A DNA stretch of 64,000 bases, from contig JAPPIK010000040.1 in the NCBI GenBank assembly GCA_028820655.1, forward strand, positions 42,874 to 106,873, read 5' to 3'. Position 1 is the stretch's first letter; each line of letters starts with the position of its first letter. Below, piece by piece: positions 39,433-43,285 of the stretch. The stretch is from Candidatus Poribacteria bacterium (GTDB taxonomy: Bacteria > Poribacteria > WGA-4E > JAJDTR01). The notes beneath the pieces were generated by a model that was not told the DNA's origin, searched no databases, and worked only from the letters and a program-made list of their open reading frames with translations. The position numbers and the translations under genes were made by a program.

Positions 39433-40503
39433 ATGAGATATATTGGCCGCAAAACCAATCTCCTCCCATACATTGAAGATGTTGTGTTGAAGAACGCTTC
39501 CCGGACGGGCGTTTTTTGCGATCTCTTTGCGGGAACGCATTCCGTCGCGGCGCATTTCAAGAGACTGGGGTTCCAAATCATATCCAACGATCTCCTCTGC
39601 CTCGCGTATGTCTTCGGGCGTGCACTGATTCAAAATAATGAAGAACCAGCGTTCAGCGCGTTGCCCAACCTTCCGAACACTCCTTCAGGAGGACTCTTCA
39701 ATGGAATGGACGCCTACCTGAGAGTTTTGAATTATCTGAACGGGCTTGTAGGAGTTTCCGACGGGTTTATCTTTAATACCTACTGCCCAGGCGGAGCCAA
39801 TGAATACTGCCGACAGTACCTATCCGATAGGAATGGAAAGAAGATTGACGCCATCAGACAACGGATCGAGGAGTGGAAGCGAGACAATCTGGTCACAGAA
39901 GACGAATACTATAGCCTCCTGCTCTCGCTTCTTGAGGCGGTGTCCAAGGTGACCAACATTTCGGGGACGTACGGCGCGTATCTGAAGGAGTGGGATGCGA
40001 GAACCTACAAAGAATTGACGCTTGATCCGATTACTCCGATTCCATCAAACAAAGAACACTCTGTGTATCAGCAAGACGCAAACCGTCTTATTGAGCAGAT
40101 TGAGTGCGATATTCTCTACATAGACCCGCCATACAACCCCCGCCAATACATCACGAACTATCATCTCCTCGAAACCATCGCACGATATGACAACCCCAGC
40201 GTCTACGGCAAAACCGGGCTGCGTCCCTACTCCGATTCGGAGAAATCGGCGTACTGCTCACGGGGAGCGTGTCTGCGCGCCTTTGCGGGGTTAATATCTC
40301 GCGCAAAGGCGAAGCATATCATCGTGAGTTATAACAGTGAGGGCATTATGAGCGATGCTGAGATACACGGCGTGTTAAGTGAAAAAGGGGAAGTACCGAA
40401 ATTGATACCTATTGATTATCGTCGGTTCAAAAGCAATTCAACCGGTAAATTAAGTAGCAATAAGAACGTAAGAGAGTATTTATTTTATGTCCAAACAAAT
40501 TGA
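39433..40503 (+). CDS. DNA adenine methyltransferase, D12 class (restriction-modification M1)
   Basis: A 356-residue N6-adenine methyltransferase of the D12 (Dam-like) class. It opens with MRYIGRKTNLLPYIEDV, has the SAM motif I DLFAGTHSVAAHF near residue 30, and the catalytic DPPY motif at 231-234 (YIDPPYNPRQYITNYHLLE). ETIARYDNPSVYGKTGLRPY and VSYNSEGIMS match methylases such as the N-terminal half of M.FokI. Its last 17 bases overlap the next methylase gene. Together with that and the FokI-like endonuclease it forms a complete type IIS system in which each methylase probably protects one strand of an asymmetric site. Confidence 0.92.
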   Translation: MRYIGRKTNLLPYIEDVVLKNASRTGVFCDLFAGTHSVAAHFKRLGFQIISNDLLCLAYVFGRALIQNNEEPAFSALPNLPNTPSGGLFNGMDAYLRVLNYLNGLVGVSDGFIFNTYCPGGANEYCRQYLSDRNGKKIDAIRQRIEEWKRDNLVTEDEYYSLLLSLLEAVSKVTNISGTYGAYLKEWDARTYKELTLDPITPIPSNKEHSVYQQDANRLIEQIECDILYIDPPYNPRQYITNYHLLETIARYDNPSVYGKTGLRPYSDSEKSAYCSRGACLRAFAGLISRAKAKHIIVSYNSEGIMSDAEIHGVLSEKGEVPKLIPIDYRRFKSNSTGKLSSNKNVREYLFYVQTN

Positions 40504-41437
40504 GAAGAAAACACAAACAGGAACGTTGGATGCGCGCAATACGCTTAACGATTTAACCGGCAGGGAATGGGTCTACTTTTTGAACTCAATTGAGTTGATT
40601 GAAGGCGAGCCATATCTCCTCACCGGCGATAAACTCAACGACTTGTCGGAGGAACAGTGGACGGCGGATCAGAGTCCACTCATTGACACGTTTTATCCGA
40701 CATCCGGAGAGAATAGTCATGCACATCATATCCGCAAGAAGCACCCATCACCAAAACCGCCTCAACTGATGAAAAGACTGATAGAGTTTTTCACCAAGAT
40801 TAATGGATGGGTGCTTGATCCGTTTGTCGGTGTAGGTGGTACGCTATTGGGGTGTTCGATGGCGGGACGCCATGGGGTGGGTGTGGATCTGTCGCAAGAA
40901 TATCTTGATCTTTACGAAAAAGCTGCCGAGAACTTAAACCTTGAACCTCAGACGGTCTACCAAGGAGACTCGAGGCGTCTCGACAACATCTTCAATCGGG
41001 AGAATTATCAATTCGATCTCGTCCTGACCGATCCGCCCTACGGAGATATGCTTTCAAGAAAACGTACCGGCGAGCGGAAGAAGAGAACCGGCGACGATTC
41101 ACCTACACCGTTTACAAGTGATGAGGACGACCTCGGAAACATGGGAGCTGACCAATTCTACGAAGCCCTTAAATCCGTCATCGCTCAATCGATGGAGTTT
41201 CTCAAGGTGAAAGGATACGTCGTAGTTTTCTGCAAGGATCTTCAACCGACTGCCGAACATCACAACCTGATTCACGCTGATGTCGTTAATGCACTGACGG
41301 GGATACCCAATCTAAGGTTCAGAGGATATAAAATCTGGTACGACAAATCGCTGAAACTCTATCCTTTCGGTTATCCGTATGCGTACGTGTCCAATCAACT
41401 ACATCAGTTTATTCTGATTTTTCGGAAGGAAAGTTAA
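40487..41437 (+). CDS. DNA methyltransferase, N6/N4 class (restriction-modification M2)
   Basis: A 316-residue amino-methyltransferase of another class. Motif X (KHPSPKPPQLMKRLIEFF, about 86-103) is followed by motif I (DPFVGVGGTLLGCSMAGRHG, 111-130) and motif IV DPPYGDM (182-188), then FVFCKD-like VVVFCKDLQP. The order X-I-IV and its C-terminal recognition region differ from the D12 enzyme upstream, so the two were recruited independently. The first 17 bases overlap the upstream gene and the endonuclease gene starts 2 bases after it, which indicates one transcript and translational coupling. Confidence 0.9.
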   Translation: MSKQIEKKTQTGTLDARNTLNDLTGREWVYFLNSIELIEGEPYLLTGDKLNDLSEEQWTADQSPLIDTFYPTSGENSHAHHIRKKHPSPKPPQLMKRLIEFFTKINGWVLDPFVGVGGTLLGCSMAGRHGVGVDLSQEYLDLYEKAAENLNLEPQTVYQGDSRRLDNIFNRENYQFDLVLTDPPYGDMLSRKRTGERKKRTGDDSPTPFTSDEDDLGNMGADQFYEALKSVIAQSMEFLKVKGYVVVFCKDLQPTAEHHNLIHADVVNALTGIPNLRFRGYKIWYDKSLKLYPFGYPYAYVSNQLHQFILIFRKES

Positions 41438-41439
41438 AT

Positions 41440-43173
41440 ATGGCGTCGCGCACGTTCGGATGGGTGCAAGACCCCGGTAAAATAGAAAACCTCCGCAAAA
41501 CGGTGGAGGTTTTTGATCCTAGTTCGTCTACCTATCAGGAATTGATTGAGAATCGTATACCCGCGCTTGTTCAAGAACATGATGGGCGAGATCACTTGCT
41601 TTCCGAGTTAAGTCGTATTCCGCTAAAATTGAAATATAACGATCTGGTCGGTACCGCTTTTACTCCGCGATCTGAATCCCGTTGTGACGGCATTTTGCAG
41701 GCGGCTATTAAAGGCCAGAGGAGGGCATTCATAGGAGATTGGCCCGCCGATAATTTTCTGAGATGGGCCCATGCCTTCGGTCTTGTCGAGTATGATAAAA
41801 ACACTGATCGGTTCTCAATTAGTGATTTTGGCGCCCGGTATATGGAGGTACAACCAGATACTCCTGCTGAGAAGGAAATCCTCGCCCAAGCGTTCCTCTC
41901 ATACCCGCCTGTGATGCGGGTGTTGAACTTACTAGCGGATGGTTCACACCTCACGAAGTTTGAAGTTGGCCGGCAACTTGGATTTGTCGGCGAAGATGGC
42001 TTTACTAGCTTGCCTCAGAACATCTTAGTGCGTTCTCTTTGTCAGACAGAAGATTCAAAGAAAAGGAATGACATGCTGACGAATTGGGATGGCACCTCGG
42101 ATAAGTATGCTCGAATGATCGCAGGTTGGCTGAAGTACATGGGATGGGTAACGCAGTCCAAGAAGTGGGTTGTAGCGAAATTTGGGGACGAACAATACAA
42201 ATATCGAATCTCGCAAGCATATACGATTACGGACGCAGGATTGAAAGCGAGAAGAAGAGGAATTGGAACTAATATCCAGAGTCGAATCGCAAAGAACGTT
42301 TACTGGGAGATGTTGGCTACCAAGGGAAAAGATCGTGATTATATCCGTACGCGGCGTGCACTAGTTCTTCGAGGAATTGCCAATAAGTCATGCACTCTGG
42401 AAGGTTTGATGCAGCAATTGGCAGGCAGAGGTTTCAGCGAGACTCAGACAACCATTTTCAACGACTTGAGAGGATTGACACGAATCGGTCTCAATATTCA
42501 GCAGGAAAAGGAAGGGTATTTTCTGCGAGATACCATTAAGAATCTAGAGATACCACAACTTGCCACCGAAAGCTCGGTAAAGAGCAATATCCAAGAAATG
42601 GTTGACAAGTGTCGAACCGTTTTAGAGCATGTCCCTCACGATTATCTTATACTCATTCCCATAAGTTTTTCAAACAAGGAAAGCCGATTGCTTGAAATGA
42701 AAACGACTGAATTGCTCGTGGAACAGTGCGGATTTGATGGTCTCCATTTAGGCGGGCGAGATCAACCAGATGGTTTAATTTTCACTCGGAAACTAAGGGA
42801 CAATTATGGTGTAATCATTGATACAAAGGCGTACAAGGATGGGTTTAACATTGCTGCGGCGGAACGAGATAAGATGACACGTTACGTCACCGAAAACATG
42901 CGACGGAACCAAGAATATCCGCAAAAGTGGTGGGAACACTTTCCAAGTGGCATCAACATGTTTAGGTTCTTGTTTGTATCTAGTAAGTTTATCGGGACCT
43001 ACGAATCACAACTTAAACGAATATCAGAACTGACCCAGAACACGCGTGGGGCAGCAATCACATCTTTCAATCTGCTACTTCTGGCTGAGGAAATGGCCAA
43101 GGAGAGAATCACTCTTAAAAATACTAGCGAGATGTTTAGCAGTCTCGCAGAAGTGAAAGTCCAAATTTCCTAA
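41440..43173 (+). CDS. Type IIS restriction endonuclease, full-length FokI homologue
   Basis: A 577-residue protein close in length to FokI (579-583) and aligned with it from end to end. The N-terminal recognition region keeps RTFGWVQDPGKIENL, PRSESRCDGILQAAI, FLRWAHAFGLVEY, HLTKFEVGRQLGF and NWDGTSDKYARMIAGW. The C-terminal nuclease domain has PD at 443-444 and DTK at 461-463 (QPDGLIFT, YGVIIDTKAYKDGFN), at a constant offset of six from FokI Asp450, Asp467 and Lys469. The dimer-interface Asp477 and Arg481 match FokI Asp483 and Arg487. Some DNA-contact residues differ (Asn13 to Asp11; Asn217 to Thr214), so the recognised site may be GGATG or a relative. AAGGAAAG precedes the start. Confidence 0.96.
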   Translation: MASRTFGWVQDPGKIENLRKTVEVFDPSSSTYQELIENRIPALVQEHDGRDHLLSELSRIPLKLKYNDLVGTAFTPRSESRCDGILQAAIKGQRRAFIGDWPADNFLRWAHAFGLVEYDKNTDRFSISDFGARYMEVQPDTPAEKEILAQAFLSYPPVMRVLNLLADGSHLTKFEVGRQLGFVGEDGFTSLPQNILVRSLCQTEDSKKRNDMLTNWDGTSDKYARMIAGWLKYMGWVTQSKKWVVAKFGDEQYKYRISQAYTITDAGLKARRRGIGTNIQSRIAKNVYWEMLATKGKDRDYIRTRRALVLRGIANKSCTLEGLMQQLAGRGFSETQTTIFNDLRGLTRIGLNIQQEKEGYFLRDTIKNLEIPQLATESSVKSNIQEMVDKCRTVLEHVPHDYLILIPISFSNKESRLLEMKTTELLVEQCGFDGLHLGGRDQPDGLIFTRKLRDNYGVIIDTKAYKDGFNIAAAERDKMTRYVTENMRRNQEYPQKWWEHFPSGINMFRFLFVSSKFIGTYESQLKRISELTQNTRGAAITSFNLLLLAEEMAKERITLKNTSEMFSSLAEVKVQIS

Positions 43174-43285
43174 TCATTGCTCCTCCGGTCCTTTTTTACA
43201 CATAATAATTCTCCATTCTAGATTCTCAATGTCCTCGAAATCATGTGGCCACTTAGATACCTAGACTAGATTGATGCGCCAGAGA

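Follow-up and report, generated by a model that had tools for sequence, protein, structure and literature searches.

A predicted FokI-type Type IIS operon with an unusual second methylase in Candidatus Poribacteria

The window, a 64,000-nucleotide stretch of a 5.9 Mb Poribacteria genome (G000), contains three intact genes on one strand. Their open reading frames run as the first-pass annotation had them, and are referred to here as M1, M2, and R. M1 and M2 are predicted to encode DNA methylases, and R a restriction endonuclease (Table 1). That annotation had described a complete Type IIS operon, with a FokI homologue and two separate methylases. This description holds; R is full-length and the methylases are indeed separate genes, M1 and M2 overlapping by 17 bases. 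We conclude that the window holds an intact predicted restriction-modification operon of the FokI type, in which the nuclease is ordinary and the second methylase is unusual.

R resembles FokI from end to end. Residues 4-566 align with residues 3-569 of FokI (1fok), with an E-value of 4.2e-149. All four FokI domains in Pfam pass their cut-offs (FokI_D1, 1.3e-38; FokI_dom_2, 2.6e-49; FokI_D3, 5.2e-14; FokI_cleav_dom, 3.1e-53) and the PADLOC model REase_II PDLC03477 matches with an E-value of 6.9e-156. The proposed homology had hinged on the N-terminal 380 residues aligning with FokI; they do, since the match starts at residue 4 and D1, D2, and D3 are all found. In the family alignment, R and FokI are identical in 247 of 571 columns (43%). 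By domain, identity is 44% in D1, 51% in D2 (the highest value), 46% in D3, and 40% in the cleavage domain. The C-terminal domain retains the PD...D.K residues, together with the Asp and Arg of the dimer interface. These were said to lie at a constant offset of six from their FokI equivalents. This is correct for the cleavage domain, while the offset is 2 to 4 towards the N-terminus.

M1 matches the N-terminal half of the FokI methylase, M.FokI, over residues 1-356 (blastp, 42.5% identity, E-value 1.7e-82). No comparable blastp match was found to the C-terminal half. We conclude that M1 is the orthologue of the N-terminal, GGATG-specific half. Note that, in M.FokI, the N-terminal domain is reported to recognise GGATG and the C-terminal domain CATCC (PMC3985630). 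Since M1 matches only the former, it is expected to methylate GGATG, and the adenine of that sequence is the likely target. In motif I of M1, the second Gly of FxGxG is replaced by His. The same residue (FAGTH) occurs in all eight separate-gene copies from Poribacteria. Among nine fused Poribacteria forms that reach motif I, eight have Ala and one has Gly (G001, FAGTG). The Zixibacteria fusion also has Ala, and fused relatives of M1 read FAGTA or FSGTA.

M2 belongs to Pfam family PF01555 (E-value 2.4e-23), not D12, and matches the PADLOC model MTase_II PDLC03391 (E-value 3.4e-94). Motifs X, I, and IV start at residues 86, 111, and 181 of 316, which is the order of the gamma class. In an AlphaFold2 model (mean predicted local distance difference test score, pLDDT, of 68) the motif I strand (108-111) precedes the motif IV strand (176-181). 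Hence, M2 is of a different class from the D12 enzyme, as had been proposed from its X-I-IV motif order. There is no full-length similarity between M2 and either half of M.FokI, and comparison with the C-terminal half gave only fragments with chance scores. M2 does not, therefore, qualify as an orthologue of that half, the counterpart of which appears to have been replaced by an unrelated methylase. The target-recognition region of M2 probably lies C-terminal to motif IV, judging from the 131 residues that follow TDPPY. Reasoning from DPPY to adenine has also been applied to another enzyme of the N6/N4 family, where N6-methyladenine was reported as confirmed (PMC12898733). Since GGATG falls to M1, the adenine of CATCC, on the opposite strand, is the likely target of M2. 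A fold search with the M2 model was uninformative about specificity: the top matches were RNA methyltransferases sharing this general fold, and the DNA methylase M.TaqI came in at rank 45.

Table 1. Positions of the predicted genes, domains, and motifs of the operon in the window
Feature	Position	Strand	Basis
M1, D12-class adenine methylase, 356 residues	39433..40503	+	PF02086, E-value 4.3e-42; blastp to N-terminal half of M.FokI
M1 motif I, DLFAGTH (His in place of the second Gly of FxGxG)	39520..39540	+	sequence
M1 motif IV, DPPY, adenine type	40123..40134	+	sequence
M1/M2 overlap, 17 bases	40487..40503	+	open reading frame coordinates
M2, N6/N4-family methylase, gamma order X-I-IV, 316 residues, predicted CATCC-strand adenine methylase	40487..41437	+	PF01555, PADLOC
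M2 motif X, HPSPKPPQLM, residue 86	40742..40771	+	sequence
M2 motif I, DPFVGVGGT, residue 111	40817..40843	+	sequence
M2 motif IV, TDPPY, residue 181, adenine type, not SPPY	41027..41041	+	sequence
Stretch holding R, without counterpart in same-genus G013, where flanks and M1-M2 are present	41431..43274	.	blastn, window against L117
R, full-length FokI-family restriction endonuclease, 577 residues	41440..43173	+	1fok match, PADLOC
R recognition region: FokI_D1 (residues 4-132), FokI_dom_2 (144-276), FokI_D3 (292-356)	41449..42507	+	Pfam
R cleavage domain, FokI_cleav_dom (residues 381-559)	42580..43116	+	Pfam, E-value 3.1e-53
R predicted catalytic residues P443, D444, D461, K463	42766..42828	+	aligned to FokI P449, D450, D467, K469
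R predicted dimer-interface residues D477, R481	42868..42882	+	aligned to FokI D483, R487

Full-length relatives of FokI had been described as few. In fact, R has at least 2134 homologues (E-value of 1e-3 or below) among 7995 scored candidates, and 98 stretches were confirmed. Loci were counted in the best 80 of these 98, from a species-level collection with one genome per species. FokI itself (Planomicrobium okeanokoites, L038) is among them. Both FokI-type D12 methylases are present in 70 of the 80 loci, fused in 44 and separate in 26. Hence, neither a full-length relative of FokI nor a pair of unfused methylases is special, and gene separation loses its value as a distinguishing point. Type IIS systems are reported often to have individual methylase proteins, FokI being the fused case (PMC4081073). 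Of the remaining loci, three pair M1 with an M2-type partner, three have only the second D12 methylase, and four have no methylase in view. In those four, no more than 312 bases of the stretch lie ahead of R, and anything further upstream falls outside the data. The M2-type partner, found in two Poribacteria as a separate gene and in one of the Zixibacteria as a fusion, is thus the unusual element of the operon. Three named relatives of M2 are from Poribacteria. M1 and M2 are linked to a FokI-type R in G000, in G040 (placed in the same order), and in G063, with the fused form in Zixibacteria L075. The expectation that the methylases accompany the nuclease in other genomes is therefore borne out. 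No account of this operon was found among the titles and abstracts listed from the open-licence literature on Poribacteria restriction-modification, or on FokI homologues with GGATG/CATCC.

Our favoured reading, which we hold with a probability of roughly 0.8, is that this intact operon encodes a modular Type IIS system. R would cut at a fixed distance from GGATG, M1 would act on GGATG, and the unrelated M2 would act on CATCC. By analogy with FokI, an R monomer would recognise its site by means of D1 and D2 and then release its cleavage domain. A second such domain would join it at the surface containing D477 and R481, and unmethylated DNA would be cut outside the site. Such behaviour is reported for FokI: the cleavage domain is restrained while the monomer binds, and the enzyme then dimerises and cuts beyond its target (PMC10201449, PMC4081073). 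M1 would methylate the adenine of GGATG and M2 that of CATCC on the opposite strand. Because the site is asymmetric, both enzymes would be needed for full protection, and protection of the two strands by two methylases is described as established for Type IIS systems (PMC4081073). In this modular scheme, the M1 family would be constant. The opposite-strand methylase would be of either the M.FokI C-terminal type or the M2 type. For the nuclease, the alternatives would be a FokI-type enzyme and an unrelated one that is about 465 residues long and has BtsCI-like motifs.

The second nuclease, R465, is a protein of 464-465 residues that adjoins a fused M1-M2 in two Poribacteria (G001 and G080). It shows no sequence match to FokI-type R and no Pfam family above cut-off, and it is matched by the PADLOC Type II restriction model PDLC03445. 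At least 2591 homologues were found among 8000 scored. A structural model of R465 (mean pLDDT 51.5) was too poor for a fold search. BtsCI recognises GGATG. Its motifs are given as SD-X6-E-X14-QR and PD-Xn-EXK (PMC6097692). In R465, E-X14-QR and PD-X14-E-X-K are found in all 120 of the best listed proteins; E-X14-QR and PD...E.K recur in all seven further copies from the collected loci. Leaving the SD-X6 part aside, these published motifs suggest that R465 is BtsCI-like. R465 accompanies an M1-family and an M2-type methylase on viral contig L139. The second methylase is instead of the M.FokI C-terminal type on viral contigs L137 and L138, and on plasmids of Psychrobacter (L204) and Bartonella (L205). 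Both types of second methylase are present on viral contig L141.

To place these systems, we used a quick tree of M1, with 94 rows and support from the Shimodaira-Hasegawa-like approximate likelihood ratio test. M1 of the window falls in a group of 24 rows (support 97) that mixes FokI-type and R465 systems. G001, G080, L137, L204, and L205 are inside this group; L138, L139, and L141 are outside. Sister pairs join the Zixibacteria system (FokI-type R) with G001 (R465; support 99), and L081 (FokI-type R) with L137 (R465; support 94). Across the whole tree, nuclease type needs seven changes, a rough count because the tree has three long rows (L142, L139, and L138). For this count, the broken copies in G033 and G016 were coded as FokI-type, G014, with an end piece, was coded as R465, and 10 rows in which no nuclease was seen were not counted.

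R465, with its BtsCI-like motifs, is also a partner of the M1 clade to which the window belongs, and GGATG is therefore the likely target of the system. Taken with the orthology of M1, these shared methylases make it likely that R recognises GGATG. Elsewhere, a P. intermedia system has been described with two methylases, assigned N6-methyladenine at GGATG and CATCC (PMC5608340). The system is called FokI-like in that report, but we infer that its nuclease, at 466 and 475 codons by its coordinates in two strains, is nearer to R465 than to FokI. Methylation of GGATG/CATCC is also reported in Streptococcus equi, where the relevant text names no comparable enzyme (PMC8754150), and this case was not used here. 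Overall, M1, the second methylase, and the nuclease look like modules that agree on one site. In related genomes the methylase pair persists while the cutter differs or none was found, which suggests interchangeable parts.

The analysis covered 84 Poribacteria genomes, that of the window included. FokI-type R was found in 5, R465 in 2, and M2 (at least 59% identity) in 17. Of these 17, three have a full FokI-type R (G000, G040, and G063), two a broken copy (G033 and G016), and two a full R465 (G001 and G080). One case, G014, is undecided: its R465 piece runs to the contig end and, lying within about 260 bases of that end, was rejected as an instance of decay. In the other nine (G012, G013, G015, and G017-G022) neither R nor R465 was found anywhere in the assembly, a third kind of nuclease not having been searched for. 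These assemblies are 88-98% complete and that of G022 is a single contig. Hence, the methylase pair is often kept in Poribacteria where neither nuclease is found. The locus in G013, from the same genus as the window, keeps both methylases and the same neighbours but lacks any counterpart to the 1844 bases that contain R; roughly 150 unmatched bases occupy their place. A relaxed search detected no remnant of R at the corresponding places in G013, G015, and G012. The single match returned (E-value 0.35), within 1203 bases after M2 of G012, was taken as chance.

In one genus, all six genomes (G017-G022; loci L123-L127 and L129) have a fused methylase of 674-681 residues, with no nuclease and with the same neighbours. 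For G020, neighbours are seen on one side only, since the contig starts there. The ratio of nonsynonymous to synonymous substitution rates (dN/dS) for this fusion is 0.06-0.14 in 15 pairwise comparisons, and the halves gave similar values in the four pairs tried. We conclude that this protein is under purifying selection. It may be that the Poribacteria methylase pair has become free of restriction, that nucleases of two unrelated families come and go beside it, and that in this genus the fusion now serves as a core epigenetic enzyme, methylating both strands of a non-palindromic site in a role like that of Dam or CcrM. We offer this tentatively, and judge it somewhat less than an even bet. 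In G033 (L120 4873-5802), the normal C-terminus of M2 is lost or changed next to the broken R, which may mean that M2 and R of this operon are both in decay.

Known systems provide points of comparison. As in the FokI system of P. okeanokoites, R is homologous throughout and retains the predicted catalytic and dimer residues. The N-terminal half of M.FokI has its orthologue in M1, and the methylases are upstream of R on one strand. Unlike that system, the window lacks a C-terminal D12 half, has an unrelated gamma-order methylase in its place, and encodes its methylases separately. In addition, R is 43% identical and has Asp at the place of N13. The 26 loci with two separate D12 methylases also have a FokI-type R beside two methylase genes, but their second methylase is of the M.FokI C-terminal type. 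Systems of the BtsCI/BstF5I type probably share the recognition sequence. R465 systems have M1-family methylases and, in L139, G001, and G080, M2-type methylases. However, BtsCI is described as having two catalytic sites in one chain (PMC6097692), and no R465 match was found in G000, so the window is not of this type by its nuclease. MhoVII of Mycoplasma hominis likewise combines N6/N4-family and D12 adenine methylases on the two strands of an asymmetric sequence, GATG/CATC. Conversely, the N6/N4 methylase of MhoVII is assigned to the beta order, the methylases are fused, and no motif like the catalytic one of FokI was found by the authors in its nuclease (PMC12898733).

Other explanations must be weighed against a GGATG-specific, modular system. 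Because N13 of FokI, presumably a base-contacting residue, is Asp (D11) in R, a changed recognition site is possible. R, M1, and M2 might then read an asymmetric site related to GGATG, the swap of second methylase having accompanied the shift. E220 of FokI is also altered (D217), and the family is divided at the N13 place; among 81 collected sequences, including R, there are 32 with Asp, 45 with Asn, and 4 with a gap. However, many systems that have the usual two D12 methylases carry Asp there as well. Moreover, Q12, R79, Q95, W105, K225, and R228, which we also take to be base contacts, are conserved in R, although N217, counted with them, is T214. M1, for its part, is within the family of the M.FokI N-terminal half, in a group common to R465 systems. 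A shift in specificity therefore seems unlikely. We find it slightly harder still to credit that M2 methylates a shorter site such as CATC, protecting CATCC and marking many other places, after recruitment from among solitary CATC enzymes. Methylases in REBASE with a predicted specificity for CATC are reported to be solitary gamma-group enzymes that cluster with the N6/N4-family enzyme of MhoVII, and the fused N6/N4 and D12 methylases of MhoVII are reported to methylate GATG/CATC (PMC12898733). Yet in Poribacteria and Zixibacteria, as well as on viral contigs, M2-type methylases are linked to a nuclease and an M1-family methylase. The operon might, finally, be a decaying or inactive relic, given the His in motif I of M1, the broken R of G033 and G016, and the nine genomes, of the 17 with the methylase pair, in which R was not found. 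This we regard as very improbable. All three frames in the window are full length and active-site residues are retained. The same His occurs in G040 and G063, both of which have an intact R, with dN/dS of 0.11 between the two (pairs with G000 are saturated at silent sites).

Several observations count against a modular GGATG/CATCC system all the same. One is the division at the N13 place, and D11 in R. The likeness between R465 and BtsCI is one of short published motifs. CATCC was assigned to M2 by elimination, with no characterised relative of M2 among our results. The M2 type occurs in 1 of 118 genomes drawn from the Zixibacteria phylum (profile search, E-value of 1e-60 or below), namely the known one, making this an isolated case. 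Finally, the window shows no avoidance of GGATG/CATCC (observed/expected 0.96), which we list here although it is neutral.

If the modular reading is true, methylases that arose independently can share the protection of an asymmetric site, one for each strand, and a single methylase pair can swap between nucleases from two unrelated families. Co-evolution of recognition sequences would become testable, since proteins of separate origin would need to match one another at GGATG/CATCC. What makes the operon informative is that, among its relatives, the methylase pair persists and the nuclease is either exchanged or missing. In particular, the Poribacteria copies without R, including the same-genus locus lacking just R, would form a natural series from restriction system to solitary methylase.

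Some further observations concern the surroundings and relatives of the operon. Upstream of the operon, three genes have G+C contents of 58.5, 53.7, and 54.6%; the values are 48.3, 46.9, and 45.5% for M1, M2, and R, respectively, and 48.6 and 54.1% for the two genes downstream. FokI-type genes on Staphylococcus plasmids (H9-H15) match R over residues 1-297 only; at this sensitivity, they correspond to just its recognition part. Relatives of R465, with 45% identity, occur in four near-identical prophages of Streptococcus constellatus (H16-H19). The Psychrobacter plasmid has two tandem R465 genes behind both methylases (L204 3530-6404). Viral-contig scans using single proteins returned no relatives. 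On viral contigs L142 (4158-7769) and L143 (4721-8332), methylases of the M1 family and the M2 type precede an AAA_5 protein (729 residues) and an McrC-like protein (467 residues), as if a third, McrBC-like nuclease module sat on the same methylase pair. Lastly, an unannotated protein of about 176-186 residues, with the pattern D..DVK, is encoded near GGATG-type systems of either nuclease family. The protein looks like a small PD-(D/E)XK domain; two copies were scanned and had no Pfam or PADLOC match. Among the window and collected loci there are six copies: one near FokI itself (L038 8883-9443, minus strand), and those in L046, L034, L137, L139, and L140, which are 56-67% identical to it.

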